40,823 nt of DNA from an uncultured Bacteroidia bacterium (GTDB taxonomy: Bacteria > Bacteroidota > Bacteroidia > Bacteroidales > UBA932): positions 1-40,823 of the forward strand of contig CACZKE010000024.1 in the NCBI GenBank assembly GCA_902781705.1, given 5' to 3'. The notes under the pieces were generated by a model that saw only the letters and a program-made list of their open reading frames with translations, did not search any database and was not told where the DNA came from. Made by a program: the position numbers and the translations under genes. This document shows positions 16,180 to 36,894 of this stretch, one piece after another; the first letter of the stretch is position 1; the number at the start of each line of letters is the position of its first letter.

Positions 16180-17259
16180 TTACCGCACCTTGGAGTCGCA
16201 GTACCAGCAGCGGAGGACGCCGTCGTCGCTGCGACGGAACTTGTGCGGCGCTTTCTCATTGTTGCAGATGCACTTGCGGTTTGTGCAGCGGGCCGTCGGG
16301 TCCGTGACGGCTTCTTCGTCCGAAGGCATGCCGTGCTCCGGGTCGTCCTTCCATTCCAGAAGTTTGACGATCAGGGCTTCCCGCACGAACTTGCCGTTCT
16401 CCACCTGGCGGAAGTAGGCGGCGCGCGGGTCGGCATCGACCTCGGTCAGGATTTCGTTCACGCGGGGGAGCGGGTGCAGGACGGCCATGTCCTTCTTGGC
16501 GAGGGCCATGCGGGCGGCATCCAGCACGAAACTGTCCTTCACGCGGTCGAATTCGTCCTCGTCCAGGAAACGCTCCTTTTGCACGCGTGTCATATACAGC
16601 ACGTCCAGTTCGGGCATCACTTCCTCCATCGTTTCCACCTCGCGGTAGGGGATGCCGGTGCGCTCGCACACGTCGTGCTTGATATAGTCGGGGAGTTTGA
16701 GTTCCTGAGGGGCGATCAGGATCACCTTGATGTCCTTGTAGCGGGACAGGGCCTTGATCAGGGAATGGACGGTCCGGCCGAAACGGAGGTCGCCGCAGAA
16801 GCCGATGGTGATGCCGTCGATGTGCCCCAGTTCGCGCTTGATGGTGAGGAGGTCGGTGAGGGTCTGCGTCGGGTGGCTGTGGGAGCCGTCGCCTGCGTTG
16901 ATGATCGGGACGCGGGAGACTTCGGTGGCATAGAGTTGGGCACCCTCGATATGGTGGCGCATGGCGATGACGTCGGCAAAGCAGCCCACGACGCGGACGG
17001 TGTCCTGCACGGTCTCGCCCTTGCTCACGGAGGAATTCCGGGCGTCGGAGAAGCCGAGGACATTGCCGCCCAGTTCCATCATGGCGGAGGTGAAACTCAG
17101 GCGGGTACGGGTGCTGGGCTCGTAGAAGAGCGTGGCCAGTTTCTTGTGGGACATGCTGCCCTGATAGCGTTCGCGGTGGGCGATGATGTCCTGGGCCAGG
17201 GAGATGATCTCGTCGGTCTCCTGCTTGGTCAGGTCCATCGGGTCGATGAGGTGTTTCAT
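16180..17259 (-). CDS. pyrB: Aspartate carbamoyltransferase with a C-terminal PyrI-type zinc domain
   Basis: Predicted 359-residue enzyme that condenses carbamoyl phosphate with aspartate, second step of UMP synthesis. The catalytic chain (about 1-310) has EPSTRTRLSF, HPTQTLTDL, GDLRFGRTVHSL and HPLPR, close to the E. coli-type chain that normally pairs with PyrI. It is followed by about 35 residues with cysteines at 325, 330, 332, 351 and 354. The spacing C-x4-C ... C-x2-C and the endings (RCTNRKC, VLRCWYC) match the zinc domain of PyrI (C-PNSN-C, LKCKYC), which in E. coli binds the catalytic chain. The allosteric nucleotide-binding domain of PyrI is absent. Last gene of the pyr operon, 12 nt after pyrE; no terminator is evident after it. 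Confidence 0.93.
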   Translation of the reverse strand: MKHLIDPMDLTKQETDEIISLAQDIIAHRERYQGSMSHKKLATLFYEPSTRTRLSFTSAMMELGGNVLGFSDARNSSVSKGETVQDTVRVVGCFADVIAMRHHIEGAQLYATEVSRVPIINAGDGSHSHPTQTLTDLLTIKRELGHIDGITIGFCGDLRFGRTVHSLIKALSRYKDIKVILIAPQELKLPDYIKHDVCERTGIPYREVETMEEVMPELDVLYMTRVQKERFLDEDEFDRVKDSFVLDAARMALAKKDMAVLHPLPRVNEILTEVDADPRAAYFRQVENGKFVREALIVKLLEWKDDPEHGMPSDEEAVTDPTARCTNRKCICNNEKAPHKFRRSDDGVLRCWYCDSKVR

Positions 17260-17271
17260 ATCGTTTCGGTG

Positions 17272-17904
17272 TTATTGTTTGATCCAACTTTCATCCTGGG
17301 GATTGTCGCGGAAGGCGAGGATGCGTTCCTTCCAGCCGGCGGCGATGCGCCCCTCTTCCTCGGCCACGTCCACGAGGACGTCCAGGTTGCAAAGGGAGTG
17401 GTTCTCCGTATTCGCAGCGGCGATGCGCTCCAGGCCGCGCTTCATTCCATACGTGAAGATGGAGACGATGCCCAGCACCTCGGCGCCGGCCTCCCGCAGG
17501 GCCTCGACCACCTCGATGGCGCTGCCGCCGGTGGAGATCAGGTCTTCGATGACGACGACTTTCGTACCGGGGTCCATCTTGCCCTCGATCCGGTTCGTCC
17601 GGCCGTGGGTCTTGGCCTCGCCGCGGACATAACCCATGGGCAGGTCCAGAATGGTCGCCGTGATGGCGGCGTGGGCGATACCGGCCGTGGAGGTTCCCAT
17701 AAGCATTTCGCAATCAGGATAGTAGCGCTGTACGAGTTTCGCGAGTCCGTTCTCCACCTGCTCGCGCACCCGGGGAGCGGAGAGGGTGAGGCGGTTGTCG
17801 CAGTAAATCGGGCTCTTGATGCCGCTGGCCCAGGTGAACGGTTCCTCGGGGCGCAGGAAAACGGCGCCGATGGAGAGGAGGGAGGAGGCTATCTGTCTTT
17901 CCAT
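17272..17904 (-). CDS. pyrE: Orotate phosphoribosyltransferase
   Basis: Predicted 210-residue enzyme that joins orotate to PRPP to give OMP. The PRPP loop VVVIEDLISTGGSAIEV and the catalytic-loop region YVRGEAKTHGRTNRIEG are clear. I choose ATG 17904 ([10 protein letters not shown]) because it overlaps the pyrF stop as TAATG, a coupled junction; the alternative start at 17925 would lengthen the overlap with pyrF and adds a short tail without family support. Length is typical (205-215). Confidence 0.94.
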   Translation of the reverse strand: MERQIASSLLSIGAVFLRPEEPFTWASGIKSPIYCDNRLTLSAPRVREQVENGLAKLVQRYYPDCEMLMGTSTAGIAHAAITATILDLPMGYVRGEAKTHGRTNRIEGKMDPGTKVVVIEDLISTGGSAIEVVEALREAGAEVLGIVSIFTYGMKRGLERIAAANTENHSLCNLDVLVDVAEEEGRIAAGWKERILAFRDNPQDESWIKQ

Positions 17905-18601
17905 TATATGAATTCCTTTAAGCATTTCTCATACGCTGCGACGGGGTCGGGGGCGGCGGTGATGGGGCGGCCCACCACGATGTAGTCCGAGCCGATTTCC
18001 CGGGCGCGGGCGGGGGTGGTGATGCGGACCTGGTCGTCCGCGGCGGCATCGGCAAAGCGGATGCCGGGGGTGACGGCAAGGAATTCCTTGCCGCAGGCCT
18101 CCTTGACAAGGCCGGCTTCCTGGGGGGAGCACACGACCCCGTCCAGTCCGGCTTCCTTCGCGTTCATCGCGTATTGGACGACGGCCCGGCGGAGATTGGT
18201 GCGGATGAGGAGTTCATTCTGCATGACCTCTTCCGAGGTGGATGTGAGTTGCGTGACGGCGATAAGGAGCGGCCGCGTGCCGTCCTCCCGCGTGAGCCCT
18301 TCCAGGGCGGCGCGCATCATCGCGACGGTGCCGGAGGCATGGACATTGACCATGTCCACGTCCAGGTTGGAAAGCACCCGCATCGCTTTCTTGACGGTGT
18401 TGGGAATGTCGTGAAGTTTGAGGTCCAGGAAGATCCGATGTCCGCGGGCCTTGATCTCACGGACAATGGAAGGACCCTCGGCATAGTAGAGTTCCATGCC
18501 GATCTTCACGAAGGGCTTGCGTCCCTCGGGGAAACGGTCCAGGAATTCCAGCGTGGCTTCGCGGCTGGAGAAGTCGCAGGCGATGATGACGTCTCTTTGG
18601 G

Positions 18602-18605
<4 letters not shown>
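17904..18605 (-). CDS. pyrF: Orotidine 5'-phosphate decarboxylase
   Basis: Predicted 233-residue TIM-barrel enzyme, last step to UMP. The start VIIACDF, the catalytic [10 protein letters not shown] (D61, K63, D66 of the K-D-x-K-x-x-D array) and the phosphate-binding YIVVGRPI are present. It is the short B. subtilis-like form rather than the longer group-2 form found in some Bacteroidota. It overlaps pyrD by 4 nt (ATGA) and pyrE by one. Confidence 0.95.
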
Positions 18606-19506
<901 letters not shown>

Positions 19507-19513
<7 letters not shown>

Positions 19514-20268
19514 AGCAGTTCCTCCTTCTTGAAGACCGGACCGTCCTTGCACACGCGCCGGGGACCGTTTTTCGTCTGGATGCTGCAACCGTAGCAGAAC
19601 CCGGCGCCGCAGCCCATGCGCTCTTCGAGCGAGGCCTCGCCGGGGCCGTCCAGCGCCTGGCAGACGACTTTCATCATGACCATCGGCCCGCAGGTATAAA
19701 AGTAATCGTACGTCGGGTTGGCCGCGGCGATCGCATCGGTGACGAATCCCTTCACGCCCACGGAGCCATCGACCGTGGACACCAGGACCTCGTCGCAGAC
19801 TGCCCGGAATTCATCGGCCAGGATGATCTCCTCGGCCTTGTTGAACCCCAGTACGGCCGTGACCTTCTTCCCGCGCGCCTTCAGCTCCTTGGCCAGCAGA
19901 TACAGCGGGGGAACCCCTAGTCCGCCGCCGACGAGCAGCGCCTCTTCCCGGCACGACTCCGGATCGAACCCGTTTCCCAGGCCGGTCAGCACATCCAGCT
20001 CCGTCCCGGCGGTCATTTCCGCCAGCGCCTTCGTCCCTTCTCCCACGACCCTGTACACCACCGTCAGCTTCCCGTCTTCCCGGTCGCAGATGGACAGCGG
20101 TCTCCGCAGGTAGAACCCCGGGATGGCGATGTCCACGAACTCGCCGTGACAGATTTCTCGACTCCGCCCTTCGGGCTCCGCTCGAAATGACAGGGGAACC
20201 AGCACCAACCGATAGGTCCTGGGGGCTATCAGGACGTTCTCCGCTATCGTATAAAGGCTTTTATTCAC
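19507..20268 (-). CDS. pyrK: Dihydroorotate dehydrogenase B, electron-transfer subunit, carrying an inserted repeat
   Basis: Predicted 253-residue FAD and [2Fe-2S] protein that passes electrons from PyrD to NAD+. FAD-binding RRPLSICD (55-62), the VGGGLGVPPLYLLAKEL NAD/FAD site and the cluster cysteines 220, 225, 228 and 240 (CGAGFCYGC...C) are intact. Residues 25-41 (PLSFRAEPEGRSREICH) are encoded by the palindromic repeat at 20151-20193 and lie in the loop between the first beta strands, just before GEFVDIAIPG, where other PyrK proteins have only a few residues. The frame is kept. The start is GTG, overlapping the carB stop by one nucleotide (TAGTG). Confidence 0.93.
20151..20193 (-). repeat. 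Palindromic repeat, copy 2, in frame within pyrK
   Basis: The 43-bp unit has the same left (AGATTTCTCGACTCCGCC) and right (CCGCTCGAAATGACAG) parts as the copy at 7151-7192, with GCCC-TTC-GGGC at the palindrome centre. On the coding strand it is read as TCA-TTT-CGA-GCG, one base out of register with the frame used in copy 1. Confidence 0.88.
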
Positions 20269-23200
20269 TATCTGTACTCCTCGTCGATCGTGGAAATTCC
20301 CAGCGTAATCTCCTCCAGCACATCCAGGAGGACCCGGACGGTCTCGAGGGCCGTGAAGATGGTGACGTTGTTCTCCACCGCGCAGCGGCGGATGCCGTAT
20401 CCGTCCAGATGGCTGGACTTCTGGTTCAGGTCGATCGTGTTGATCACGTACTTGACATGTCCCTTGCGGATGGCCTGGTAGATCTCGTCACTGCCTTCGC
20501 CGAGTTTCCGGAGCATCTTGGTGCGGATGCCGTGCTCCTTGAGGAAGGCCGCCGTGCCCTTGGTGGCCTCGATGTTGAAGCCCAGGTTGTAGAACCGGCG
20601 GATGAGCGGGAGCGCGTCCTCTTTGTCCTTGTCGGCGATGGTGGCGAACACGGTCCCGTAGGACTTGATGTCCATGCCGGAAGCCTGCAGGGACTTGTAC
20701 AGGGCGCGGTTCAGGGAGTCGTCGTAGCCGATGGCCTCGCCCGTCGATTTCATCTCCGGGGAGAGGTACGTGTCGATGCCCTTGATTTTTCCGAAGGAGA
20801 AGGCCGGCGTCTTGACGAAGTGGCGCTTGCGCTCCGGGAAGTAGACCTCCGTGATGCCTTGTTCCTTCAGGGAGTGGCCCAGCATCACGCGCGTGGCGAT
20901 CTTCGCCATCGGGATGCCCGTGCTCTTGGAAATGAACGGTACGGTGCGGGAGGAACGGGGATTGACCTCGATCACGTACACGTTCTCGTCGCTGTCCACG
21001 ATGAACTGGATGTTGAACAGGCCCACGATGCCGATCGCCTTTCCGAGTTTCACCGTATCGTCGATGATCTCCTGCTTGACCTTCGGACTCAGACTGAAGG
21101 AAGGATAGACGCTGATGGAGTCGCCGGAGTGGATGCCGGTGCGCTCCACGTGTTCCATGATGGCCGGGATGAAGACGTCCGTCCCGTCGCAGATGGCATC
21201 GACCTCGGTCTCCTTGCCCATGATGTACTTGTCCACCAGGACAGGGGACTTTTCGTTGATTTCCACCGCATTATGGAGGTAGTGGCGGAGCGTGTCCTCA
21301 TTGCCTACGATCATCATCGCGCGGCCGCCAAGCACGAAACTCGGACGTACGAGGACCGGGTAGCCGATGTCTTCGGCCGCCTTCACACCGTCCTCCACGT
21401 TCGTGACGGCATGGGCCTTGGGCTGGCGGATGCCGGTCTTGCGCATGATCTCCTCGAAGAGTTTGCGGTCCTCGGCGTTGTCGATGGCCTGGAGGCCGGT
21501 GCCGATGAGCGGGACGCCGAACTCGGAGAGGGGACCGGCGAGGTTGATGGCCGTCTGGCCGCCCAGGGAGACGATGATGCCGTCCGGCTGCTCGAGCCGG
21601 ATGACGTTCATCACGTCCTCCGTGGTGAGCGGTTCGAAATAGAGTTTGTCGGAGACGGTGTAGTCCGTGGAGACGGTTTCGGGGTTGTTGTTGATGATGA
21701 TGGCCTCGTAACCGGCCTCGCGGATGGCCCAGATGGCATGGACCGTGGAGTAGTCGAATTCCACGCCCTGGCCGATGCGGATCGGGCCGGAGCCCAGCAC
21801 GAGGATCTTCTTGCGGTCGCTGCGGACGGATTCGTTCTCCTGCTCGTAGGTGGAGTAGAAGTACGGGACGTAGGTGTCGTGCTCGGCGGCGCAGGAATCG
21901 ATCATCTTATAGACCGGGACGATGCCGTGCTCGAAGCGGAAGCGGATGATGTCGGCCTCGCTCTTTCCCCAGAGTTGCCCGATGAACTGGTCGCCGAAAC
22001 CCATGCGCTTGGCTTCCCGGAGGATCTCCACGTCACCCGGGGCGGCCTTCACGCGGCGCTCCATGCGGACGATGTTGTAGATCTTCTCGAGGAAGAGCCA
22101 GTCGATCTTCGTGCGGTCGTAGATGCGGGACAGGTCGATGCGAAGGCGCAGGAGCTGCGCGATGGCGTGGATGCGGTCGTCGGTCGGGGTGGAGATGTAC
22201 TCCAGGAGTTTCTCCTCGGACCAGTCGTCGAATTTCTTCTTGTGGATGTGGCAGCAGCCGCTTTCCAGGGAGCGCATCGCCTTGAGGATGCTCTCCTCGA
22301 GGGTACGGCCGATGCTCATCACTTCGCCCGTCGCCTTCATCTGGGTGCCGAGTTCATTGGAGGCCTCGCTGAACTTGTCGAAGGGGAAGCGGGCCACCTT
22401 GGCGACCACGTAGTCGATGGCCGGTTCGCAGCAGGCGGGGGCGCCGGCCACGGTGATCTCGTCCAGGGTGAGGCCCACGGCGATCTTCGCCGTCACGCGG
22501 GCGATCGGGAAGCCGCTGGCCTTGGAGGCGAGGGCGGAGGACCGGGACACGCGCGGATTGACCTCGATGATATAGTACTTGAAGGACAGCGGGTCCAGGG
22601 CGAACTGGACGTTGCACCCGCCTTCGATCTTGAGGGCGCGGATGAGTTTCAGGGCGCTGTCCCGGAGCATCTGGTATTCCTTGTCGGTGAGAGTGAGGGC
22701 GGGCGCCACGACCATCGAGTCGCCCGTGTGGACGCCCACCGGGTCGATGTTCTCCATCGAGCAGATGGCGATGGCTGTATCATTGGCATCACGCATCACC
22801 TCGAACTCGATCTCCTTGTAGCCCTTGATGCTCTTTTCCACCAGCACTTCGCCGACGGGGGAGAGGGCGAGGGCGTTCCGCATCATGTCGCGGAGTTCCT
22901 CCTCGTTGTAGGCGAAACCGCCGCCCGTGCCGCCCAGGGTGAAGGCCGGACGCAGGATGACCGGATAGCCGATACGCTCCGCCGCGGCCACGGCTTCCTC
23001 GACGCTGTAGGTGATTTCGGAGGGGATGACCGGCTCGTCGATGGAGAGGCACAGTTCCTTGAAGAGTTCGCGGTCCTCCGCCTTTTCGATGCCCTGGAAG
23101 GACGTTCCCAGGATTTCCACGCCGCATTCCTCCAGGACGCCCTTCTTGGCGAGTTGGACGGCGAGGTTCAAGCCGGTCTGGCCGCCGAGGCCGGGCACCA

Positions 23201-23456
23201 GGGCGTCCGGACGCTCGTAGCGGATGATCTTGGCGATGTATTCCAGGGTGAGGGGCTCCATATACACCTTGTCGGCCATCTGGGTGTCCGTCATGATGGT
23301 CGCGGGGTTAGAGTTCACGAGGATGACCTCGTAGCCCTCTTCCTTGAGGGCGATGCAGGCCTGCGTGCCGGCGTAGTCGAATTCCGCGGCCTGGCCGATG
23401 ACGATCGGACCGGAGCCGATCACGAGCACTTTCCTGATATCTTTTCTCCTAGGCAT
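20268..23456 (-). CDS. carB: Carbamoyl phosphate synthase, large subunit
   Basis: Predicted 1062-residue synthetase. Two homologous halves each have the ATP-grasp pattern: [20 protein letters not shown] at the N-terminus and [20 protein letters not shown] near residue 550, each followed by [20 protein letters not shown] or [22 protein letters not shown]-terminal MGS-like domain (about 930-1062) is where UMP or ornithine act in homologues. It makes carbamoyl phosphate from bicarbonate, two ATP and ammonia. Ammonia is normally tunnelled from CarA, but the CarA encoded here lacks its catalytic cysteine (see there). Start overlaps the carA stop by 8 nt. Confidence 0.96.
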
Positions 23457-24531
23457 TCTTCGGGCCCTCCATCATTTCGATAAACTTGTCAAAAAGGTTC
23501 ACGTTGTCCAGCGGACCGGGAGCGGATTCCAGGTGGAACTGGACGCCGAAGACCTTGTCTTCCCGGTTCTCGAATCCAAGCACGTATCCCTCGGGGACCA
23601 GGACGTGCGTCGGGGTGAGCGCCGTTCCCTCCACGGTGTCGAACCGGAAGGTCTGGTTCAGGACGGCAATGTTGATCCTCCCGGTAGAGAGGTCGCGCAC
23701 CGGATGGTCACCGTGCATTCCACAGCCCATCGGGGCGAGCCCGGCGCCGTATTCCAGGCCGATGGCCTCCATGCCCAGGCCGATGCCCAGCACGGGGACG
23801 CGGCCCTTGATCTCGGCGAACAGGGCGCGGATCTCCGGGGCATCCAGGGCCGATACCGGGCCGTTGGACAGCAGGACGCCGTCCGGATTGAAGGCGAGGA
23901 TGTCCTTCGCCGGGGTGTTGAACGGGACGACGGTCACGTTGCAGCCGCGCTGCTTCAGGCAGGTAAGGATGCTCTGCTTGATACCGCAGTCCACCGCCAC
24001 GACGTGGAACCGGTGGTTCGAGGTGCGGGTGACCCAGCGCTTGCGGCAACTGACGCGGCGCAGCAGGTCCTTAGGGCGCTCCGTCGCCGCGATGAGGGCG
24101 AGGGCTTCCTCCCTGGGCATGTCCGCCTCCACGATGGCGGCCATCGGTCGGCCGGTCTCGCGGATGATCTTGGTGATCATGCGGGTGTCCACACCGCTCA
24201 GGCAGGGGATCCCGTGGTCTTCCAATTCCTCTTCCAGGGTCTTGGTGGACCGGAAGTTGCTGGGCGTGTCGCAGCATTCGCGGACGATGAGTCCGCCGAT
24301 GTCCGTGGAACGGGATTCATAGTCCTCGTCCGCGATGCCGTAGTTCCCGATGAGGGGGTACGTCATGACGACGATCTGTCCGGCGTAGGAGGGGTCGGAA
24401 ATGATTTCCTGGTACCCCACGACGGAGGTGTTGAACACGAGTTCGCAGACTTTGCGGCAGTCGGCTCCGAAGAGCGTGCCGTAGAACTCCTGCCCGGTCT
24501 CCAATACCAGTTTCTTTGCAGGTCTCAGCAT
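23449..24531 (-). CDS. carA: Carbamoyl phosphate synthase small subunit with a degenerate glutaminase site
   Basis: Predicted 360-residue small subunit, normally a class I glutamine amidotransferase that feeds ammonia to CarB. The N-terminal domain is well conserved ([39 protein letters not shown]). In the C-terminal domain the nucleophile motif GICLGHQ reads GIGLGMEA: the cysteine position is Gly251 (codon GGC at 23781-23779) and His-Gln become Met-Glu. LSNGPGDP reads LSNGPVSA, and QNHGF reads LNQTF. The His333/Glu335 pair (VQFHLES) remains. As seen, hydrolysis of glutamine should be impossible by the normal mechanism. The subunit probably still binds and stabilises CarB, which would use free ammonia, as in vertebrate CPS I. 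Overlaps pyrC by 7 nt and carB by 8. Confidence 0.93.
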
Positions 24532-25811
24532 ATCTTTGTCAAGTTGTTATAGACAGGTTTTCCGTTTTTCAGGTTCAGCAGCACCCGGCCCCATACGCTC
24601 CAGCCCTCGAACGGGGTGGACTTGCCCATGGACGCGAAAGACCGCGGGTCGATGGTGAAGGGATGCTCGAGGTCGATGGCGACGAGGTCCGCCGGGGCGC
24701 CTTCGACGAGGCCGCCGCCGAGGCGGAAGATGCGCCGGGGCGCGGCGTTCATCGCTTCCAGCAGGCGCTCCAGGGTGATGCGGCCGGTCCGGACCAGTTT
24801 CGTGTACAGGACCGGGAAGGCCGTTTCCAGTCCCACGATGCCCATGGCGCTGCCTTTCAGGCCCCGGCTCTTTTCCTCAGCGGTGTGCGGGGCATGATCC
24901 GTCGCGATCGCGTCGATGGTGCCGTCCGCGAGACCCTCGAGAAGGGCCTCCCGGTCATCCGCGCTCCGCAGGGGCGGGTTCATCTTGAAGCGTCCGTCCT
25001 CCAGCATATCGTCTTCGCAGAGGGTGAGGTAATGCGGTCCGGTCTCGCAGGTGACGCGCACCCCGCGGGCCTTGGCGGCGCGGATGAGTTCCACGCTCTC
25101 GCGCGTACTTATATGACACACGTGATAGCGGCAGCCGGTCTCCTCCGCCAGGGCAAGGTCGCGGGCGATCTGCCCCCACTCGCTTTCGGAGCAGATACCC
25201 CGGTGTCCATGGGCGGCGGCATAGCGGCCGTCGTGGATATATCCACCCTTCAGGAGGGCATTGTCTTCGCAGTGGGCCGCGATGATGACGTCTTCCCGGG
25301 CGGCGGTCTCCATGGCCCGGCGCATCATCGCCTCGTCCTGGACGCCGCTTCCGTCGTCGGAGAAGGCGACACAGCGGTCCTTGAGGGCGGGGATATCGAC
25401 CAGTTCCAGTCCTTTCCGGCCTTTGGTGATGGCACAGTAGGGGAGGACGTCGATGACCGCGTCCCGGTCGATGGCCGCCTGTTCCACGGCGAGGGTTTCC
25501 GGACTGTCCGGCACGGGGTTCAGGTTGGGCATCGCACAGACGACGTCGTAACCGCCCCGGGCCGCGGCGGCGGATCCGGTGGCGATGGTTTCCTTGGCCG
25601 TGAAGCCCGGCTCGCGGAAATGGACGTGGATGTCGGCGAAGGACTGTGTCAGGAGCAGGCCGCCCGCCTCCACGGCGTCCGTCCCTTCCGGGATGTCAAG
25701 GCCCGTTCCGATGGCGGCGACTTTCCCGTCCCGGACCAGGATGTCCCGGGTGCGGATTCCGTCGGAGGCGGCGACAAGGCCTCCCTTCAGCAGGAGCAGG
25801 TTACCTTTCAT
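24525..25811 (-). CDS. pyrC: Dihydroorotase
   Basis: Predicted 428-residue zinc amidohydrolase that cyclises carbamoyl aspartate to dihydroorotate. Metal motif DIHVHFREPG (H62, H64), CAMPNLNP, the DDGSGVQDEA loop, AAHCEDN and ATDHAPHT mark a type I dihydroorotase. I choose ATG 25811 (MKGNLLLLKGG). The frame also opens at a TTG at 25853, but that start would read MLSAALRVVFFLS through the attenuator hairpin and T-run and adds nothing family-like. First structural gene of the pyr operon; the preceding 45-codon leader ORF overlaps it by 11 nt. Confidence 0.95.
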   Translation of the reverse strand: MKGNLLLLKGGLVAASDGIRTRDILVRDGKVAAIGTGLDIPEGTDAVEAGGLLLTQSFADIHVHFREPGFTAKETIATGSAAAARGGYDVVCAMPNLNPVPDSPETLAVEQAAIDRDAVIDVLPYCAITKGRKGLELVDIPALKDRCVAFSDDGSGVQDEAMMRRAMETAAREDVIIAAHCEDNALLKGGYIHDGRYAAAHGHRGICSESEWGQIARDLALAEETGCRYHVCHISTRESVELIRAAKARGVRVTCETGPHYLTLCEDDMLEDGRFKMNPPLRSADDREALLEGLADGTIDAIATDHAPHTAEEKSRGLKGSAMGIVGLETAFPVLYTKLVRTGRITLERLLEAMNAAPRRIFRLGGGLVEGAPADLVAIDLEHPFTIDPRSFASMGKSTPFEGWSVWGRVLLNLKNGKPVYNNLTKIC

Positions 25812-25938
25812 GGCAGACAAAAAAAAGACAACCCGAAGGGCTGCCGACAACAAATGGGAATGGATGGAAAGGGAAACGGGAAAAATCCTCGGCTCCGCCG
25901 ATACAGACCGTCCGGGATATGAGGGTGTTCCGCATCAT
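25801..25938 (-). CDS. Putative leader peptide of the pyr operon (45 codons)
   Basis: An open frame starts at ATG 25938 (second ATG at 25935), runs 45 codons and stops at TAA 25803-25801, 8-10 nt inside pyrC in another frame. It crosses a 34-nt pyrimidine-rich run (25885-25852, only four purines) coding for the Phe/Pro-rich stretch FSRFPFHPFPFVV (residues 19-31), then the attenuator hairpin and T-run. The E. coli pyrBI leader peptide (44 residues, with LPFFFP over a U-rich pause region) has the same plan. There is no Shine-Dalgarno site, and the ATG lies 11 nt after the -7 box. Translation is inferred, not shown. Confidence 0.55.
   Translation of the reverse strand: MMRNTLISRTVCIGGAEDFSRFPFHPFPFVVGSPSGCLFFVCHER
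25819..25845 (-). terminator. Attenuator: intrinsic terminator just before pyrC
   Basis: On the minus strand GGCAGCCC (25845-25838) pairs with GGGTTGTC (25834-25827), eight pairs including two G-U, around a TTC loop, and is followed by eight T (25826-25819). The run ends 7 nt before the pyrC ATG and about 115-120 nt after the likely transcription start. Its placement between promoter and first gene makes it an attenuator rather than an end-of-operon terminator. A smaller hairpin (25901-25889, TCGGC-GGA-GCCGA) followed by TTTTT lies upstream and could act as a pause site. Confidence 0.75.
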
Positions 25939-25949
25939 TTCTCGGACTG

Positions 25950-25982
25950 CAAAGGTACTGATTTTTGGAAGAATTCTCCAAA
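25950..25982 (-). promoter_or_regulatory. Promoter of the pyr operon
   Basis: On the minus strand TTTG (25982-25979) is followed after 21 nt by TACCTTTG (25957-25950). The leader ATG is 11 nt downstream of the -7 box, pyrC ATG about 138 nt. Confidence 0.8.
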
Positions 25983-25999
25983 TTTTTTCCGGGAAAATA

Positions 26000-26018
26000 T
26001 CAACATTTCCCTTGTTGA
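26000..26018. promoter_or_regulatory. Dyad between the pyr and pur promoters
   Basis: TCAACA (26000-26005) and TGTTGA (26013-26018) form a perfect 6-bp inverted repeat with a 7-nt spacer, located between the -33 elements of the two divergent promoters. It has operator-like size; no regulator gene is nearby. Confidence 0.3.
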
Positions 26019-26048
26019 AAAAACTTTTCGGAAAAAGCCGGAAAAGGA

Positions 26049-26080
26049 TTTGCGTCCTTGAGATATTCGGCCTATCTTTG
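26049..26080 (+). promoter_or_regulatory. Promoter of the pur operon
   Basis: TTTG (26049-26052) is followed after exactly 20 nt by TATCTTTG (26073-26080), a textbook Bacteroidota promoter. The purE ATG is 42 nt beyond the -7 box. The short leader shows no terminator or riboswitch. Confidence 0.85.
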
Positions 26081-26122
26081 CAGTCCGTTAATGGAAACGA
26101 ACGCTTAATCCCTTAGAGCCCT

Positions 26123-26593
26123 ATGAGCAAGGTAGCCGTCATCATGGGCAGCGCCAGTGACTGGGATGTCATGTCCCCGGCCTGCACCACCCTGGAGGAA
26201 TTCGGAATCCCTTATGAGAAAAGGGTCCTCAGCGCCCACCGCAATCCGGGACCGCTCGCGGACTATGTCCGTGCCGCCCGGGACAACGGGTTCGAAGTCA
26301 TCATCGCCGGCGCCGGCGGTGCCGCCCACCTTCCGGGCGTGATCGCCGCCCTGACCACTCTCCCGGTCATCGGCATCCCGGTCAAGTCCAAGGCCCTGAA
26401 CGGCCTGGATTCCCTCCTCTCCATCGTCCAGATGCCTTCCGGCATCCCCGTCGCTACGATGGCCATCGACGGGGCCAAGAATGCGGCCCTCTACGCCGTC
26501 GCGATGCTTGCCTTGAAGGACGACGCCCTCCGCCTGAAACTGGAGGAGTTCCGCAAGGCCCAGAGCGACAAGGTACTCAATACGACTATCTAA
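26123..26593 (+). CDS. purE: N5-carboxyaminoimidazole ribonucleotide mutase
   Basis: Predicted 156-residue class I PurE, which converts N5-CAIR (made by PurK) to CAIR. It has GSASDWDVM, the His-containing SAHRNP (usually SAHRTP) and [11 protein letters not shown]. Length and motifs separate it from the AIR-carboxylase class II. purK is not in the window and must lie elsewhere for this step to work. First gene of the pur operon. Confidence 0.94.
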
Positions 26594-26598
26594 ACTTC

Positions 26599-26630
26599 AT
26601 GCCCACCCCCGCCACCGCGCCGGTGGGCAT
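26599..26630 (+). promoter_or_regulatory. Hairpin between purE and purL
   Basis: ATGCCCACC (26599-26607) pairs with GGTGGGCAT (26622-26630), nine perfect pairs. The right arm can instead pair with CCACCG in the loop (CCACCG-CGC-CGGTGG). No T-run follows, so it is not a normal terminator. It may set relative purE/purL expression or protect the mRNA end. Confidence 0.45.
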
Positions 26631-26644
26631 ATCATTTACCGTCC

Positions 26645-29600
26645 ATGAACAGCAGACGCATTTTCGTAGAAAAGAAAGACCGGTTCCGGGTGGAAGCGGC
26701 GAGCCTCCTTGCCGAGTTCAACGAGAACCTGTCCCTGAGCCTGGGATCCCTCCGGCTCATCAACGTGTATGACCTTTTCGGATTCTCGGACGACCTGCTC
26801 GAGCGGACCCGCTACAGCGTGTTCGGCGAAGTGGTGACCGATACCGTGACCGACGACCTTCCCCTGGAAGGGAAGAAGTACATCGCCGTGGAATACATCC
26901 CGGGCCAGTTCGACCAGCGGGCCTCGTCCGCCGTGGACTGCGTGCACCTGATCGACCCGGCGGCGGACATCGAGATCAAGAGTTCCCGCCTGCTGGTCTT
27001 TGACGATTCGGTGGACGGAGAGACCCTGAAGCGGATCCGCCACTACTTCATCAATCCCGTGGAAAGCCGGGAAAAGGACCTGTCCGTCCTCTCCCTCAGC
27101 GAGAAGGCCGACGTGAAGCCCCTGGAGGACCTCTCCGGCTTCACAGACATGGCCCCGGACGATTATGCCGCCTTCTGCAAGGGACACGGCCTCGCCATGA
27201 ACACCGACGACCTCGCCGAAGTGGTCCGCTATTTCCGCGGGGAAGGCCGGAACCCTTCCGAGACGGAACTCCGGATCCTGGACACCTACTGGAGCGACCA
27301 CTGCCGTCACACCACCTTCACCTCCGAACTGGAGGAAATCACGGTGGACGAGTCCTTCATGAAGGCCGAACTGGAAGAGTCCCTGGGCCTGTTTGAGCAG
27401 ATGCGCGCGGACCTCGGCCGGGAAAACAAGCCCCGCTGCCTGATGGAACTCGCCACGATCGGAGCCCGCTGGCTCAGAAAGCAGGGCAAACTGGATGACC
27501 TGGAGCAGAGCGAGGAGAACAACGCCTGCAGCATCTTCGTGAACGTGGACGTGAACGGGGAGACGGAGAAGTGGCTCCTGCAGTTCAAGAACGAGACGCA
27601 CAACCATCCCACGGAAATCGAACCCTTCGGCGGTGCGGCCACCTGCCTGGGCGGCGCGATCCGGGACCCGCTCTCCGGCCGTGCCTATGTCTATCAGGCG
27701 ATGCGTGTCACCGGCGCCGGCGACATCACGGCCCGCGTCGCGGACACCATCCCCGGCAAACTTCCGCAGCGGATGATCTCGAAGAAGGCGGCCGCCGGTT
27801 ATTCCAGTTACGGCAACCAGATCGGCCTCGCCACGACGCATGTGCGGGAAATCTATGCCGACGGCTATACCGCCAAGCGCATGGAGATCGGCGCCGTCGT
27901 GGGAGCCGTGAAGGCCTCCGCCGTGCGGCGGGAAAGCCCCGCACCCGGCGACGTGATCCTCCTGCTGGGCGGCCGGACGGGCCGGGACGGCATCGGGGGA
28001 GCGACGGGCTCATCCAAGGAGCATACGGAGGCCTCCCTGGAAACTTGCGGCAGCGAGGTCCAGAAGGGCAACGCCCCCGAAGAACGCCAACTCCAGCGGC
28101 TTTTCCGCCGCCCGGAAGTGACGCGTCTCATCAAGAAATCGAACGACTTCGGCGCCGGCGGCGTCTCCGTCGCCATCGGCGAACTCGCCGGGGGCCTGGA
28201 CATCTACCTGGACCGCGTCCCTGCGAAATATGCCGGCCTCAATGCGACGGAACTCGCTATCAGCGAGTCCCAGGAGCGCATGGCCGTGGTGGTGGAAGCC
28301 GCTGACAAGGAGCGCTTCATGGCCCTCTGCGGGGCCGACAATATCGAAGTGACCCACGTGGCCGATGTCACGGACACGGGTCGGATGCGCATGTTCGACG
28401 CCGGCGTGAAGGTGTGCGACCTTTCCCGCGAATTCATCGACAGCGCCGGTGCGAAACATTATGCGAAGGCAGAGATCCTGCCCGTGGAGGACAAGGATCC
28501 CTTCGTGCGCAAGCCGGAAGGCAAGACGCTTACGGAGAAGATGCTCTCCGTCATGTCCTCCCCGAACGTCGCTTCCCAGAAGGGACTTGTGGAGATGTTT
28601 GACTCCACCGTGGGCCGTTCCACGGTGCTCATGCCTTACGGCGGTGCCCGCCAACTTACCGAAACGCAGGTTTCCGTGCAGAAGCTTCCCGTGGACGGTT
28701 ATACCGATACGGCCAGTGTCATGGCCTTCGGCTACGACCCGGACCTTGCGGTCTGGAGCCCTTACCACAGCGCGGCCTATGCCGTCGTGGAGGCCTGCAC
28801 GAAGGTGGCCTGCGTCGGTGCCGACTGGTCCCGCATGCGCTTCTCCTACCAGGAATACTTCGAACGGATGACCCACGACCCGCATACCTGGGGCAAGCCG
28901 CTGAGCGCCCTGCTGGGCACGGTCAAGATGCAGAAGGAACTGGGTCTCGCCTCCATCGGCGGCAAGGACTCCATGAGCGGCACCTTCGAACATATCCACG
29001 TTCCGCCCACTCTCGTCGCCTTCGGCATCACGACGGTGGACGCCCGGACCGTCATTTCCCCGGAATTCAAGAAAGCCGGAAACCGGATCTACCTGCTCCG
29101 GCATACGCCCCTTGGCAATCGGATGCCCGATACGGATCAGTTGAAGGCCCACTGGACCTTCCTCCGCGAGTCCGTGGAAAGCGGCAAGGTCGTGTCGGCC
29201 TGGTCGCTCACCTACGGCGGTGTCGCCGAAGCGCTGGTGAAGATGGCCATGGGCAACCGCCTCGGTGTCAAGGTTTCCGTCCCTGAATATGACCTCTTCT
29301 CGCTGGGCTATGGCTCGGTGGTCGTGGAAACCGTCGGGGAACTGGTCCATCCGGATGCGGTCCTTCTCGGTACGGTAACGGACGGTGCCTTTGAGGTCAA
29401 CGGCGAAACGATGGAACTCGCTTCCCTGGAGAAGGCCTGGGAGTCCCGGTACTTCAAACTGTATCCGCCGCGCGTAAAGGCCCAGTTCGACGAGCCGGTT
29501 CCGGCCGTTGAGCCCGTTCCGTACGATCGGAAGAACCTCGTTTATCCCGGCGAGGCCGTAGAGCACCCTGTCGTGTGCCTGCCCGTCTTCCCGGGCTCCA

Positions 29601-30328
29601 ACTGCGACTACGACACGGCCAAGGCCTTCCGCAAGGCCGGTGCCGAGGTCCGTCCCTTCATCTTCCGGAACCTGACACCGGAGGATGTGCTCCGCTCCAT
29701 TGACACCCTTTCCGCCATGATCGCGGAAAGCCATATCCTCGCCTTCTGCGGCGGCTTCTCCTCCGGCGACGAGCCGGACGGCAGCGGCAAGTTCATCGCC
29801 GATGTGATCGGCAACGCCCAGGTGAGTGCGGCCATCGAGGGCCTTTTGGGCCGCGGCGGCCTGATCCTGGGTATCTGCAACGGCTTCCAGGCCCTCGTAA
29901 AGAGCGGCCTCCTTCCGTACGGGAAGCCCGGCTGCGTAACGCCGGATTCCCCGACCCTCTTCCGCAACGACATCAACCGCCACGTCTCGCTTGTCGCGAC
30001 GACGGAGGTCGCCACGGTGAATTCGCCCTGGCTCGCGGGCCTTTCCGTCGGCGACCGCCACAGCATCGCCTTCAGCCACGGCGAGGGTAAATTCGTCGTG
30101 GAGCCCGCCCTGGCGCGCGAACTCTTCGCCCGCGGACAGGTGGCCTTCCGCTATGTGGACAACCCCAACGGCTCCCATTACGACATCGAGGGCATCGTGA
30201 GCCCCGACGGCCATGTCCTGGGCAAGATGGGCCACACGGAGCGCTATGAACCGAACCTTATGAAGAACATCAGCGGCGAAAGGTTCCAGCCGCTCTTCGA
30301 GAACGCTGTCAACTATTTCAGAAAATGA
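26645..30328 (+). CDS. purL: Phosphoribosylformylglycinamidine synthase (single-chain, with glutaminase domain)
   Basis: Predicted 1227-residue enzyme that converts FGAR, ATP and glutamine to FGAM. A PurS-like N-terminal part precedes two AIRS-like synthetase halves (LDTYWSDHCRHTTF, KNETHNHPTEIEPFGGAATC, GGRTGRDGIGGATGSS, then SIGGKDSMSGTFE). The C-terminal class I glutaminase domain starts near PVFPGSNCDYDTAKAF and keeps its nucleophile in GICNGFQ (Cys1078) and the His1197/Glu1199 pair in GHTER. It is thus the one intact glutamine amidotransferase among the three in this window. Start ATG 26645 is 51 nt after purE; the stop overlaps purC as ATGA. Confidence 0.95.
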   Translation: MNSRRIFVEKKDRFRVEAASLLAEFNENLSLSLGSLRLINVYDLFGFSDDLLERTRYSVFGEVVTDTVTDDLPLEGKKYIAVEYIPGQFDQRASSAVDCVHLIDPAADIEIKSSRLLVFDDSVDGETLKRIRHYFINPVESREKDLSVLSLSEKADVKPLEDLSGFTDMAPDDYAAFCKGHGLAMNTDDLAEVVRYFRGEGRNPSETELRILDTYWSDHCRHTTFTSELEEITVDESFMKAELEESLGLFEQMRADLGRENKPRCLMELATIGARWLRKQGKLDDLEQSEENNACSIFVNVDVNGETEKWLLQFKNETHNHPTEIEPFGGAATCLGGAIRDPLSGRAYVYQAMRVTGAGDITARVADTIPGKLPQRMISKKAAAGYSSYGNQIGLATTHVREIYADGYTAKRMEIGAVVGAVKASAVRRESPAPGDVILLLGGRTGRDGIGGATGSSKEHTEASLETCGSEVQKGNAPEERQLQRLFRRPEVTRLIKKSNDFGAGGVSVAIGELAGGLDIYLDRVPAKYAGLNATELAISESQERMAVVVEAADKERFMALCGADNIEVTHVADVTDTGRMRMFDAGVKVCDLSREFIDSAGAKHYAKAEILPVEDKDPFVRKPEGKTLTEKMLSVMSSPNVASQKGLVEMFDSTVGRSTVLMPYGGARQLTETQVSVQKLPVDGYTDTASVMAFGYDPDLAVWSPYHSAAYAVVEACTKVACVGADWSRMRFSYQEYFERMTHDPHTWGKPLSALLGTVKMQKELGLASIGGKDSMSGTFEHIHVPPTLVAFGITTVDARTVISPEFKKAGNRIYLLRHTPLGNRMPDTDQLKAHWTFLRESVESGKVVSAWSLTYGGVAEALVKMAMGNRLGVKVSVPEYDLFSLGYGSVVVETVGELVHPDAVLLGTVTDGAFEVNGETMELASLEKAWESRYFKLYPPRVKAQFDEPVPAVEPVPYDRKNLVYPGEAVEHPVVCLPVFPGSNCDYDTAKAFRKAGAEVRPFIFRNLTPEDVLRSIDTLSAMIAESHILAFCGGFSSGDEPDGSGKFIADVIGNAQVSAAIEGLLGRGGLILGICNGFQALVKSGLLPYGKPGCVTPDSPTLFRNDINRHVSLVATTEVATVNSPWLAGLSVGDRHSIAFSHGEGKFVVEPALARELFARGQVAFRYVDNPNGSHYDIEGIVSPDGHVLGKMGHTERYEPNLMKNISGERFQPLFENAVNYFRK

Positions 30329-31062
30329 TCGATAAGAGAGAATGTGTGTTCCGGGGGAACGAGAAGCAGGTCTTTGCGACCAGCGATCCCCACATGGTGA
30401 TCTTCCGCTACACGGATGTCACGGTCGCCTACAACAACATCAAGCGGGCCCGCTTCAAGGGAAAGGGCGCGCTGGACAACCGGATTTCCGCCCTGCTGCT
30501 GGATTACCTCAACGAGAACGGCGTGGAAACCCACTATGTGAAGACCGTCGCCCCGGACGAGCAGCTGTGCCGGAAGATCGAGATCATCCCCTTGCAGGTC
30601 GTTATCCACAACCGGATTGCCGGTTCCCTGGCGGTGCGCCTGGGCGTGGATGATGGTTTCCGTCCCGCCAACACGATCGTGGACCTGCGTTACAACAACG
30701 ACGAACTCGAGGACCCGTTCATCAACCGGGACCACGCCGTGGCGCTGGGTCTCGCGACCTATCAGGAACTGGACGGGATGTACGACATCGCCCGCAAGGC
30801 GAACGACCTCCTGAAGGAACTCTTCCACCGCGCCGGCATCGAACTCGTGGACATGAAGATCGAGTTCGGACGGGCTGCCGACAACGGCGAGATCATCATC
30901 TCCGACGAAATCAGCCCCGACACCTGCCGTCTCTGGGACGAGGAGAGCGGGGAACGGCTGGACAAGGACCGCTTCCGCCTGGACCTCGGCGATGTCGCCG
31001 AGAGTTACCGGACCGTCCTGGATCGGCTGGAAAAAGTTTTGGGAATCGAAGAAGAAGAATAA
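30325..31062 (+). CDS. purC: Phosphoribosylaminoimidazole-succinocarboxamide synthase
   Basis: Predicted 245-residue enzyme joining CAIR and aspartate with ATP to SAICAR. KQVFATSDPHMVIFRYTDV, FKGKGALDNRISALLLDYL and ISDEISPDTCRLWD are family motifs. The usual VRN-AAGS segment reads VIHNRIAGS, a His in place of the Arg; whether this matters for phosphate binding is not clear. Length is typical (235-255). Coupled to purL by a 4-nt overlap and 6 nt from purF. Confidence 0.94.
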   Translation: MIDKRECVFRGNEKQVFATSDPHMVIFRYTDVTVAYNNIKRARFKGKGALDNRISALLLDYLNENGVETHYVKTVAPDEQLCRKIEIIPLQVVIHNRIAGSLAVRLGVDDGFRPANTIVDLRYNNDELEDPFINRDHAVALGLATYQELDGMYDIARKANDLLKELFHRAGIELVDMKIEFGRAADNGEIIISDEISPDTCRLWDEESGERLDKDRFRLDLGDVAESYRTVLDRLEKVLGIEEEE

Positions 31063-31068
31063 AGGAAT

Positions 31069-32430
31069 ATGGGTGTACTGGCAGTCTATGGCGTCCCGGA
31101 CGCCGCTACCTTGATCTACTACGGCCTTCACAACCTCCAGCACCGGGGACAGGAAGGCGGCGGAATCTGCACGTTCGACGAGCACGGCGAGGCGCACCGC
31201 TACCGCGGTCTGGGCCTGCTGAGCGAGATCTTCACCAACGGGGAACTCAAGACCCTTCCCGGCACGCAGGGACTCGGCAGCGTAAAGTATGCCAATGCCT
31301 CCAAGGGCGGCCTGGACAACGTGGAGCCCCTGTTCTTCCATCACCTGACCGGTGACTTCGCCCTGGCCGGCGAGGGGAACGTGGTCAATTCCCGCCAGAT
31401 CATGGACTACCTCCAGAAGCACGGCACGCTGTTCCAGACCGATACGGACAGCGAACTGCTGGCGCATCTGGTGAAAAAGAACGGCAAGGAAGACCGCATC
31501 TTCCGCCTGATGAAGGCGCTCAATATGATGGAGGGCGGTTTCACCTTCCTCCTGATGACCAAGAACCGCATCTACGCCTGCCGCGACAAATACGGCATCA
31601 AGCCGCTGTGTCTCGGCCGGCTCGGGAACGGCTGGGTGATCTCCAGCGAGTCCTGCGCCTTCGAAATCATGGGTGCGGAGTTCATCCGCGACATCGAGCC
31701 CGGAGAGATCATCTGCGTAGACTACAAGGGCATCCGGACCAACCGCTATTCCCGCATCAAGGAGCACCGGATGTGCGCGATGGAGTATATCTACTTCGCC
31801 CGTCCGGACAGCGACATCGACGGCTGCAATGTCCATGCGTACCGCAAGGAGGCCGGCCGGCGCCTGTACCGGGAGTGCCCGGTGGAGGCCGACATGGTCG
31901 TGGGCGTCCCGGAATCCAGCCTCAGCGCCGCCATGGGCTACGCCGAGGAAAGCGGCATTCCGTATGAGATGGGCCTCGTGAAGCACAAGTACGTGGGCCG
32001 TACCTTCATCCAGCCCGTGCAGTCCCTCCGGGAACTGGGCGTGAAGATGAAGCTTTCCCCGGTGCGCAGCATCGTGAAGGGAAAGCGGATCGTGCTGGTG
32101 GACGACTCCATCGTCCGGGGAACGACCTCCCTGAAAATCGTCCGCCTGCTCCGGGAAGCCGGGGCGACGGAGGTCCATGTGCGCATCGCCAGCCCGATGA
32201 TGCGCTTCACCTGCCACTACGGCGTGGACACCTCCACCCCCGAGGAACTCCTGTGCTCGCACCGGACCCTCGAGGAGGCGCGGCAGGCCATCGGCGCCGA
32301 TTCCCTGGGCTACCTGAGCCCGGAATCCACCCGCGACTCCTGCTTCGGCTGCGCGAATCCTTGCCAGGCCTGCTTCACGGGCGAGTACCCCACGCTCCTG
32401 TATGAAAACGAAATCGAAAACAACGACTGA
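31069..32430 (+). CDS. purF: Amidophosphoribosyltransferase lacking the catalytic N-terminal cysteine
   Basis: Predicted 453-residue enzyme, first step of purine synthesis, closely like the B. subtilis type. In that family a propeptide is cut to expose Cys1 (CGVFG) as the Ntn glutaminase nucleophile. Here the chain starts MGVLAVYGVPDAA, with no propeptide and no cysteine; a stop codon lies in frame 9 nt upstream of the ATG (31060-31062), so no longer start is possible. Other glutamine-site residues are changed: GHVRYAT is GSVKYAN (Lys73 for Arg) and HNGN is GEGN (Glu102 for Asn). Asp127 remains. The phosphoribosyltransferase site VLVDDSIVRGTTS (342-354) and the cysteines of the [4Fe-4S] cluster (MCAMEY, FTCHYG, CFGCANPCQACF) are intact. 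Ammonia-dependent synthesis of phosphoribosylamine is the likely activity. Confidence 0.93.
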   Translation: MGVLAVYGVPDAATLIYYGLHNLQHRGQEGGGICTFDEHGEAHRYRGLGLLSEIFTNGELKTLPGTQGLGSVKYANASKGGLDNVEPLFFHHLTGDFALAGEGNVVNSRQIMDYLQKHGTLFQTDTDSELLAHLVKKNGKEDRIFRLMKALNMMEGGFTFLLMTKNRIYACRDKYGIKPLCLGRLGNGWVISSESCAFEIMGAEFIRDIEPGEIICVDYKGIRTNRYSRIKEHRMCAMEYIYFARPDSDIDGCNVHAYRKEAGRRLYRECPVEADMVVGVPESSLSAAMGYAEESGIPYEMGLVKHKYVGRTFIQPVQSLRELGVKMKLSPVRSIVKGKRIVLVDDSIVRGTTSLKIVRLLREAGATEVHVRIASPMMRFTCHYGVDTSTPEELLCSHRTLEEARQAIGADSLGYLSPESTRDSCFGCANPCQACFTGEYPTLLYENEIENND

Positions 32431-32435
32431 TAGAT

Positions 32436-33467
32436 ATGGCAGTATCCTATGAAAAGGCCGGCGTGAACCTGGAAGCCGGCTACGAGGTGGTCCGTCGCAT
32501 CAAGCAGCACGTGGCCTCCACCGCCCGGACCGGTTCCATGGGCAATATCGGTTCCTTCGGCGGCATGTTCGACCTCTCCGCGCTGAATATCAAGGAGCCC
32601 GTCCTCGTGAGCGGGACCGACGGCGTGGGTACCAAACTCAAGATCGCTTTCGCGATGGACAAGCACGACACCATCGGCATCGACGCCGTGGCCATGTGCG
32701 TGAACGATGTCCTGGCGCAGGGCGCCGAACCGCTCATCTTCCTGGATTATGTGGCCCTCGGGCACAACATCCCGGCCAAGGTGGAAGCCATCGTCGCGGG
32801 CGTCGCGGAAGGCTGCCGCCAGGCGGGCTGCGCCCTGGTGGGCGGCGAAACCGCCGAGATGCCGGGCATGTACGAGGATGGCGAATACGACATCGCCGGT
32901 TATACCACCGGTGTCGTTGAGAAGTCTAAACTCATTGATGGATCCAAGGTTAAGGTCGGAGATGTGCTTGTTGGCGTCGCCTCCAGCGGCGTCCATTCCA
33001 ACGGCTTCAGCCTCGTGCGCAAGATCGTCGCCGATGCAGGGCTGTCTTACGAGGATGCCATCGAAGAGTTCGGCGGCCGCAAACTCGGCGAAGTGCTCCT
33101 CACCCCGACGAAGATCTATGTGAAACAGATGCTCCAGGTCATCCGCAACTGCGATGTCCACGGTATCTGCCACATCACCGGCGGCGGCTTCGACGAGAAC
33201 ATCCCGCGTGTCCTCCGGGAAGGCCAGGGCCTCGAAATCCAGGAAGGGACCTGGGAGATCCTCCCGGTGTTCCGGATGCTGGAAAAGTGGGGTAACGTGC
33301 CGCATCGGGAGATGTTCAACATCTTCAACATGGGCATCGGCATGATCGCCGTCCTGGACGCTTCCGAGGCCGACAAGGCCATTGAAATCCTCACCGCCTG
33401 CGGGGAGAAGGCCGCTGTCATCGGCAAGGTCACGGATGTCCCCGGAGTCAATATCCATCTGTTATGA
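32436..33467 (+). CDS. purM: Phosphoribosylformylglycinamidine cyclo-ligase
   Basis: Predicted 343-residue AIR synthetase, ATP-dependent ring closure of FGAM. GSFGGMFDLS, VSGTDGVGTKLKIA, GIDAVAMCVNDVLAQGAEPLIFLDY and GGETAEMPGMY are the classical motifs, and HITGGGFDENIPR marks the C half. Five nt after purF, 4-nt overlap with purN. A short stretch near 32925-32975 uses more A/T-ending codons than its surroundings. Confidence 0.96.
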   Translation: MAVSYEKAGVNLEAGYEVVRRIKQHVASTARTGSMGNIGSFGGMFDLSALNIKEPVLVSGTDGVGTKLKIAFAMDKHDTIGIDAVAMCVNDVLAQGAEPLIFLDYVALGHNIPAKVEAIVAGVAEGCRQAGCALVGGETAEMPGMYEDGEYDIAGYTTGVVEKSKLIDGSKVKVGDVLVGVASSGVHSNGFSLVRKIVADAGLSYEDAIEEFGGRKLGEVLLTPTKIYVKQMLQVIRNCDVHGICHITGGGFDENIPRVLREGQGLEIQEGTWEILPVFRMLEKWGNVPHREMFNIFNMGIGMIAVLDASEADKAIEILTACGEKAAVIGKVTDVPGVNIHLL

Positions 33468-34026
33468 AGAAACAACTCGCCGTATTCGCCAGCGGCACCG
33501 GCACGAACTTCGACGCCATCGCCCGCGCCTGCGCGGAGGGCGTCCTGGATGCCGAAGTGGCCGTGATGGTCTGCGACAAGCCCGGCGCCGCCGTCATCGG
33601 AAAGGCGGAACGCTACGGGGTGGACACCTTCGTATTCTCGCCCAAATCGTATGCCTGCAAGGCGGATTACGAGGCGGAAATCGTCAAGGTCCTGGATGCG
33701 AAGAAGATCGACCTCGTGTGCCTGGCCGGTTACATGCGCATCGTAGGGGAGACCCTCCTCGGTGCCTACGAGGGCCGGATCATCAACATCCATCCCTCCC
33801 TGCTCCCTTCCTTCAAGGGTGCCCATGCCGTGGAGGACGCCGTCGCCTATGGCGTCAAGGTCTATGGCATCACCATCCATTGGGTCAATGCCGACCTGGA
33901 CGGCGGCAAGATCATCGCCCAGCGTGCCTTCCCTTATGAAGGCAATGATCCGGCCGAAGTGCACCGCCTCGGGCAGCCCATTGAACACGAACTTTATGTG
34001 GAAACAATCAAAAAACTGATACAGAA

Positions 34027-34030
<4 letters not shown>
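33464..34030 (+). CDS. purN: Phosphoribosylglycinamide formyltransferase
   Basis: Predicted 188-residue enzyme that transfers formyl from 10-formyl-THF to GAR. FASGTGTNFDAI, INIHPSLLPSFKGAHAVEDA and HWVNADLDGGKIIAQ contain the catalytic Asn, His and Asp. Overlaps purM and purH by 4 nt each (ATGA). Its folate cofactor is supplied by folD at the end of the operon. Confidence 0.95.
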
Positions 34031-35559
<1,529 letters not shown>

Positions 35560-35563
35560 TCGT

Positions 35564-36889: not shown

Positions 36890-36894
36890 TTTAC

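Follow-up and report, generated by a model that had tools for sequence, protein, structure and literature searches.

A likely leader-ORF attenuator, conserved and probably of pyrBI type, ahead of the pyrimidine operon in Bacteroidales

How might a complete UMP operon be controlled in the Bacteroidales, and is there a counterpart of the E. coli pyrBI attenuator ahead of it? Control of the pyrBI type, known from enteric bacteria, is the textbook example of transcription-translation coupling that itself acts as a sensor. The question is raised by a locus on contig 24 of a 3.07-Mb rumen-type Bacteroidales genome (98.97% complete); the whole stretch of DNA analysed, 40,823 nucleotides, is referred to as the window. 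Eight genes on its minus strand, in the order pyrC-carA-carB-pyrK-like-pyrD-pyrF-pyrE-pyrB, make up the complete UMP pathway. A first-pass annotation of this DNA proposed a leader-peptide attenuator of pyrBI type before pyrC, and all of its coordinates, rechecked on the minus strand, were exact to the base (Table 1). The analysis described here suggests that the region is very probably a real, conserved leader-ORF attenuator. Judged from the sequence features, the best reading, and a probable one, is a pyrBI-like attenuator that senses UTP/CTP through transcription-translation coupling.

Table 1. Features of the pyrimidine locus, in window coordinates
Feature	Position	Strand	Description
Promoter	25950..25982	-	TTTG 25982-25979, 21-nt spacer, TACCTTTG 25957-25950; read from sequence
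Leader ORF	25801..25938	-	45 codons, MMRNTLISRTVCIGGAEDFSRFPFHPFPFVVGSPSGCLFFVCHER; ATG 25938, stop 25803-25801
CATA element	25918..25921	-	17 nt downstream of the leader ATG, counted from its A
Small hairpin	25889..25901	-	TCGGCGGAGCCGA, TCGGC-GGA-GCCGA; possible pause hairpin
Pyrimidine-rich tract	25852..25885	-	34 nt, 30 pyrimidines (17 T, 13 C); proposed UTP/CTP-sensitive slow zone
Intrinsic terminator (attenuator)	25819..25845	-	GGCAGCCC-TTC-GGGTTGTC and eight T; stem 25845-25827, T8 25826-25819
pyrC	24525..25811	-	Dihydroorotase, first operon gene; Pfam Amidohydro_1, DHOase
carA, carB, pyrK-like, pyrD, pyrF, pyrE, pyrB	16180..24531	-	Remaining UMP operon; Pfam matches

The promoter claimed ahead of the leader has its elements in place. 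They match the Bacteroidota-type promoter consensus (TTTG, 21 nt, TACCTTTG), and a sigma-70 promoter scan of positions 24500-27500 gave no match. In the listed leaders of relatives, TANNTTTG starts 13-46 nt upstream of the leader start; the distance of 60 for L099 was measured to an inner ATG. The leader ORF spans the leader as described: it crosses the terminator and its stop falls just within pyrC, whose ATG at 25811 does lie 7 nt past the T run. Both the pyrimidine tract and the terminator with eight T exceed chance. No other 34-nt run with 30 pyrimidines occurs on either strand of the window, and shuffled windows (n=10) have 0 or 1 each. When the 182-nt region was shuffled 2000 times, such a run arose in 32 cases. 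The terminator is the sole strict one on the minus strand, with one more on the plus strand; none was found in 30 shuffled windows, and its sequence pattern has a single match genome-wide.

The pause-like hairpin stood only in part. Its sequence is present at 25901-25889, but the minimum-energy fold of the complete window leader does not contain the hairpin, which was seen only in the window and six close relatives. These seven aligned loci were selected by eye because the hairpin was visible; inspected by eye, L003, L004, and L010 do not clearly show it. The four pairs TCGG/CCGA are kept in 7/7 of the aligned loci, exactly in five, with one compensatory and one G-U exchange in the other two; the terminator stem is also kept in all 7, with G-U/A-U exchanges. 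A pause hairpin is not required of a pyrBI-like system, because the pyrL pause studied in vitro showed no NusA effect and no rescue by an RNA hairpin, according to part of the text of PMC9291695.

Conservation in relatives had been named as a check of the proposal. A total of 110 pyrC loci with upstream DNA were collected, from the best 80 of 583 matches and the best 30 of a same-genus search. The nearest named relatives among the matches listed were mostly rumen and gut Bacteroidales MAGs. After removal of 18 distant loci (L013-L030) and 25 loci that were Firmicutes or unassigned by record title, 67 Bacteroidota loci with the same pyrC type remained, including the window (L001). The records of L104 and L109 hold no useful taxon. 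The promoter, leader ORF, U-rich tract, intrinsic terminator, and pyrC occur in this order in 50 of the 67 loci; the others comprise seven short leaders, three ORFs fused to pyrC, and seven loci without a leader. An intrinsic terminator between promoter and pyrC is present in 57 loci (50 long and 7 short leaders). The ORF, a U-rich tract, and the terminator are kept in most loci examined. L005, L007, and L044 were recognized as long leaders by eye, and L056 was not counted beside L007, as its contig has the same length as that of L007; these four are excluded from the tests on 46 leaders (codon, frame, antiterminator, and long-range hairpin).

Among the matches listed, 11 other genomes of the window's genus carry such a pyrC. 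Six have long leaders (L003, L004, L005, L007, L010, and L012), one a short leader (L006), two a fused ORF (L008 and L009), and two no leader (L002 and L011); the other same-genus genomes listed have a distant pyrC match only, or none. The leader is also carried by Alistipes muris, Candidatus Alistipes avicola, and Porphyromonas canoris, and by MAGs labelled Rikenellaceae, Paludibacteraceae, and Prevotellaceae. The seven loci without a leader, two of them in the window's own genus, count against the best reading. As a separate observation, L002, L035, L036, and L038 are close PyrC relatives (70-72% identical) without a leader. Their pyrC seems to be preceded by other genes, apparently peptide deformylase in L002 and L038 (by eye).

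The leaders of the relatives were picked by promoter motif and terminator, without using the ORF. In 49/49 distinct long leaders, an open frame extends at least to a point 15 nt short of the stem, and it starts with ATG in 47 and with GTG in 2. In shuffled leaders, the number open by ATG had a mean of 11.7 and a maximum of 19; with GTG allowed, the mean was 17.9 and the maximum 24. The stop is no more than 15 nt away from the stem in 42/49 long leaders (shuffles with GTG allowed: mean 8.9, maximum 17), and in 41/49 when only ATG ORFs are counted (mean 5.6, maximum 12). Of 28 leaders with identities below 70%, 27 have a frame open from ATG, against a mean of 6.7 and a maximum of 14 in shuffles. 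The frame control with 46 leaders showed that the chosen frame is open in 46, the +1 frame in 5, and the +2 frame in 17. The leader ATG is likely a usable start, since it is the first codon of the PyrC frame in three relatives (L008, L009, and L064).

The peptide itself is not conserved. In pairs within ten clusters (29 leaders), codon positions 1, 2, and 3 differ near-equally (389, 392, and 447 differences), and the codon differences comprise 140 synonymous and 600 non-synonymous ones. No residue or codon run is common to the 49 long leaders, and the longest same-residue run is at most 2 in 42 of them. The ORF is thus kept while its peptide is not, a result that coupling would predict but amino-acid sensing or an arrest peptide would not. 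A conserved arrest peptide was rejected on the same ground.

The dimensions of the window leader are very similar to those of the E. coli pyrL leader. The peptides have 45 and 44 amino acids, respectively. The stem, of 8 bp in each case and followed by a T run, lies 93 nt past the ATG in the window and 88 nt in pyrL, and from the stem start to the ORF stop the distance is 45 nt in the window and 47 nt in pyrL. Over the 45 nt before the stem, the pyrimidine fraction is 0.76 in the window and 0.69 in pyrL, and the T fraction 0.44 and 0.31. Both attenuators precede pyrimidine operons, although the first gene is pyrC of a complete UMP operon in the window and pyrBI follows in E. coli. Unlike that of pyrBI, the window promoter is of the Bacteroidota type; unlike pyrL, most of the Bacteroidota relatives stop near the stem base, and a CATA element recurs near their leader start. 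Partial texts of three papers describe the known system. In the pyrBI leader, a short ORF is overlapped by a uridine-rich stretch, through which UTP alters the coupling (PMC3641672); the terminator is prevented only with tight coupling across pyrL (PMC5021804); and the pyrBI terminator lies inside the leader gene, whereas those of amino-acid attenuators lie more than 20 bp past it (PMC4824070). The Bacteroidales leaders share the pyrBI geometry. A BLASTP comparison of the pyrL and window peptides found no similarity (E 6.1), and 45 unconserved residues could not show kinship anyway. The two leaders are analogous rather than shown to be homologous, and are probably convergent.

The conserved ORF, tract, and terminator, the unconserved peptide, and the pyrL-like dimensions all support the pyrBI-type reading that had been proposed. 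The lack of a conserved peptide, of a common codon run, and of an antiterminator indicates a coupling-based mechanism rather than amino-acid attenuation. From these features we infer the start site, transcription and translation of the leader, pausing, and the UTP/CTP signal. RNA polymerase would start just past TACCTTTG, and a ribosome would load on the leader ATG. When UTP/CTP is ample, the U/C-rich tract would be crossed fast and the ribosome would lag; the terminator hairpin could then form, and transcription would stop before pyrC. When UTP/CTP is scarce, the polymerase would slow in the tract and the ribosome would catch up. By covering the 5' arm of the terminator, it would allow the eight-gene operon to be transcribed. 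Such coverage might be achieved by an ORF that crosses the terminator in the window, and by one that stops near its base in most relatives.

A leader-ORF attenuator could also read the ribosome supply or the general translation rate instead of UTP, with a close ribosome always blocking the terminator. This explanation is considerably less probable. In 49/49 long leaders, T is more frequent in the 45 nt before the stem than in the remaining leader, with a median T fraction of 0.44 before the stem vs 0.22 elsewhere. The T fraction peaks beside the stem, where the final 10 nt reach 0.58 (46 leaders), and other terminators at the same loci, a small control (n=10), have a mean of 0.23 and a median of 0.24. 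This enrichment speaks against a purely translational signal, as does the fact that the operon controlled is the UMP pathway. The short leaders speak for it: those without a clear U-rich tract retain an ORF that ends near the terminator. Seven such leaders were found (L006, L037, L041, L042, L051, L060, and L061), with ORFs of 8-19 codons that stop near the terminator; the ORFs of L037 and L041 were read by eye. In six measured ones, the T fraction before the stem is 0.13-0.36, and most have no tract. The U-rich tract may therefore not be indispensable, or the short leaders may work differently.

A translational signal is also favoured by the CATA element, which is tied to the leader ATG, at +10 to +21, in 34/56 Bacteroidales pyr leaders (shuffles: mean 2.0, maximum 7). 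It is commonest at +17 and occurs in more than one reading frame. Genome-wide, the CATA pattern has 44 matches, whereas two other tetramers have 19 and 22. Of 30 genomic matches examined, 25 head ORFs of at least 90 codons, and the criteria of the script detected no terminator at any of the 30. Part of the signal is thus a general early-codon preference, and CATA as a purely leader-specific signal was rejected because gene starts show the preference genome-wide. The 61% of leaders with CATA far exceeds that genome-wide preference. A start-codon hairpin, formed by AUG and the CAU of CATA, was also rejected as a general feature; although strong in the window (0.90), it accounts for some leaders and not for the set. 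In 31 leaders, the outer flanks pair above permuted ones (2/2000 permutations reach the value) and the inner flanks do not (1444/2000). In 49 leaders, the energy z was 0.02, and the probability that AUG is paired was 0.60 vs 0.52 in shuffled leaders. A role for CATA as a pause that would keep the polymerase in place while the start codon comes out of it is speculative. A wider scenario, tentative and rather doubtful, is that coupling attenuation evolved independently in the Bacteroidales. CATA would set the race by pausing or ribosome loading, the U-rich tract would read UTP, and some lineages would later have fused the leader ORF to PyrC.

The binding of a small molecule or a protein, PyrR or another, to the leader RNA could also switch the terminator. 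The Firmicutes PyrR attenuator is such a protein-RNA switch and uses an antiterminator; PyrR attenuators likewise terminate prematurely ahead of pyr genes. For the window leader, an explanation of this kind is improbable. It is favoured by the folding of the leaders, which is somewhat better than that of shuffles (mean z -1.10, 25/46 below -1), so some RNA structure outside the coupling model may act. No antiterminator was found, however: upstream pairing of the two stem arms is no better than in shuffles (mean z +0.21 and 0.00, n=46). The three groups that were folded have no common fold beyond the terminator, and an ORF open in every long leader is a further argument against an RNA-binding switch. 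A long-range hairpin between the U-rich segment and the surroundings of the ATG was tried and rejected (mean z -0.91, 19/46 below -1); it is not claimed for the window because the window z is +1.7.

PyrR itself was searched for in several ways. A profile search of the window genome gave one match, with 26.6 bits against a cut-off of 138, and the PyrR-binding RNA RF00515 had no match in the window or in 17 relatives. The window leader had no Rfam match, only a chance-level one on the other strand (E 0.84), and the sole Rfam hit among the relatives searched was an sRNA away from the leader. In contrast to PyrR systems, the window genome gave no PyrR match that reaches the cut-off, and neither the PyrR RNA nor an antiterminator was found at the leader; a PyrR attenuator was rejected. 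PyrR-like sites, all below the gathering score, do lie directly upstream of the homologous Firmicutes pyrC in 3/5 loci (L077, L105, and L098), which would favour an RNA switch before this gene. At the gathering score, a PyrR site was found in 0/20 homologous Firmicutes pyrC loci.

It is very improbable that the terminator is constitutive and partial, or part of a small RNA gene, and the ORF open by chance, because the conservation of the ORF is far above that in shuffles and in other frames. The window shares a leader ORF upstream of a terminator, and a pause-like hairpin, with trp/his-type leaders, but amino-acid attenuation or a ribosome-arrest peptide is the least probable explanation of all, as no regulatory codons, common residue run, conserved peptide, or antiterminator was found and the ORF reaches or stops near the terminator.

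The fused loci differ from the pyrBI-like layout. In L008, L009, and L064, the leader ORF is in frame with an N-terminally short PyrC, no terminator was seen, and C-rich starts lie upstream. In the predicted folds of L008 and L064, the start codon lies within a strong 5' hairpin (CCCGAUGAAA/UUUCAUACGGG in L064), and the predicted fold of L009 leaves AUG unpaired. The E. coli pyrC and pyrD leaders use start-site switching, which these fused leaders recall; the window differs from the E. coli leaders in having a terminator. The attenuation principle may also extend to pyrB. Upstream of pyrB in 92 other Bacteroidales loci, a promoter, an ORF, and a terminator were recognized together, by script and eye, in 14 leaders; most pyrB have no such leader, which counts against the best reading. 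The U-rich tract is less regular there, with a T fraction of at least 0.36 in 5/14. The 92 loci come from three sets (3, 29, and 60), and 26 loci of other orders were left out. Of 10 loci flagged by script in the set of 60, L197 and L210 were dropped; L171 and five loci of the set of 29 were added by eye.

The first-pass annotation had also suggested that such control of a complete UMP operon is not known to be described in the phylum. No paper on pyr attenuation in the Bacteroidota was found by title and abstract opening, in a literature search that mostly leaves subscription journals aside. A transcriptomic study of B. thetaiotaomicron (PMC7366714) reports, in part of its text, short ORFs in long 5' UTRs that resemble leader peptides, and pyr genes are not mentioned beside them in that part. 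The main text of a 2010 survey of premature terminators (PMC2965389) contains no word starting with Bacteroid. PMC3766115, from a partial text, concerns Rfam motifs only, and PMC4833913, likewise partial, concerns reinitiation after leader genes; PMC12288461 does not mention the topic terms. If the locus is a conserved counterpart of pyrBI, it would suggest that RNA polymerase and ribosome run close enough in the Bacteroidales for coupling to serve as a signal, despite promoters and translation starts unlike those of E. coli. It might then provide a natural, testable reporter of coupling for gut Bacteroidota. It would also be an example of mechanisms exchanged before one gene, including PyrR-like sites, leader coupling, and possibly start-site hairpins.

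Two further observations concern the genes around the leader. At its C-terminus, the PyrB protein (16180-17259, minus strand) has the zinc domain of PyrI (PyrI_C, E 3.7e-9), and the allosteric PyrI domain had no Pfam match in it. A purine cluster (26123-37795, plus strand) is divergent from the pyrimidine operon; its purE was identified by Pfam, and purL, purC, purF, purM, purN, purH, purD, and folD by eye. The divergent pyrC and purE promoters have the 11-mer TTTGCAGTCCG in common, at 25943-25953 on the minus strand and 26077-26087 on the plus strand. These are its only two matches in the window, against 0.02 expected.
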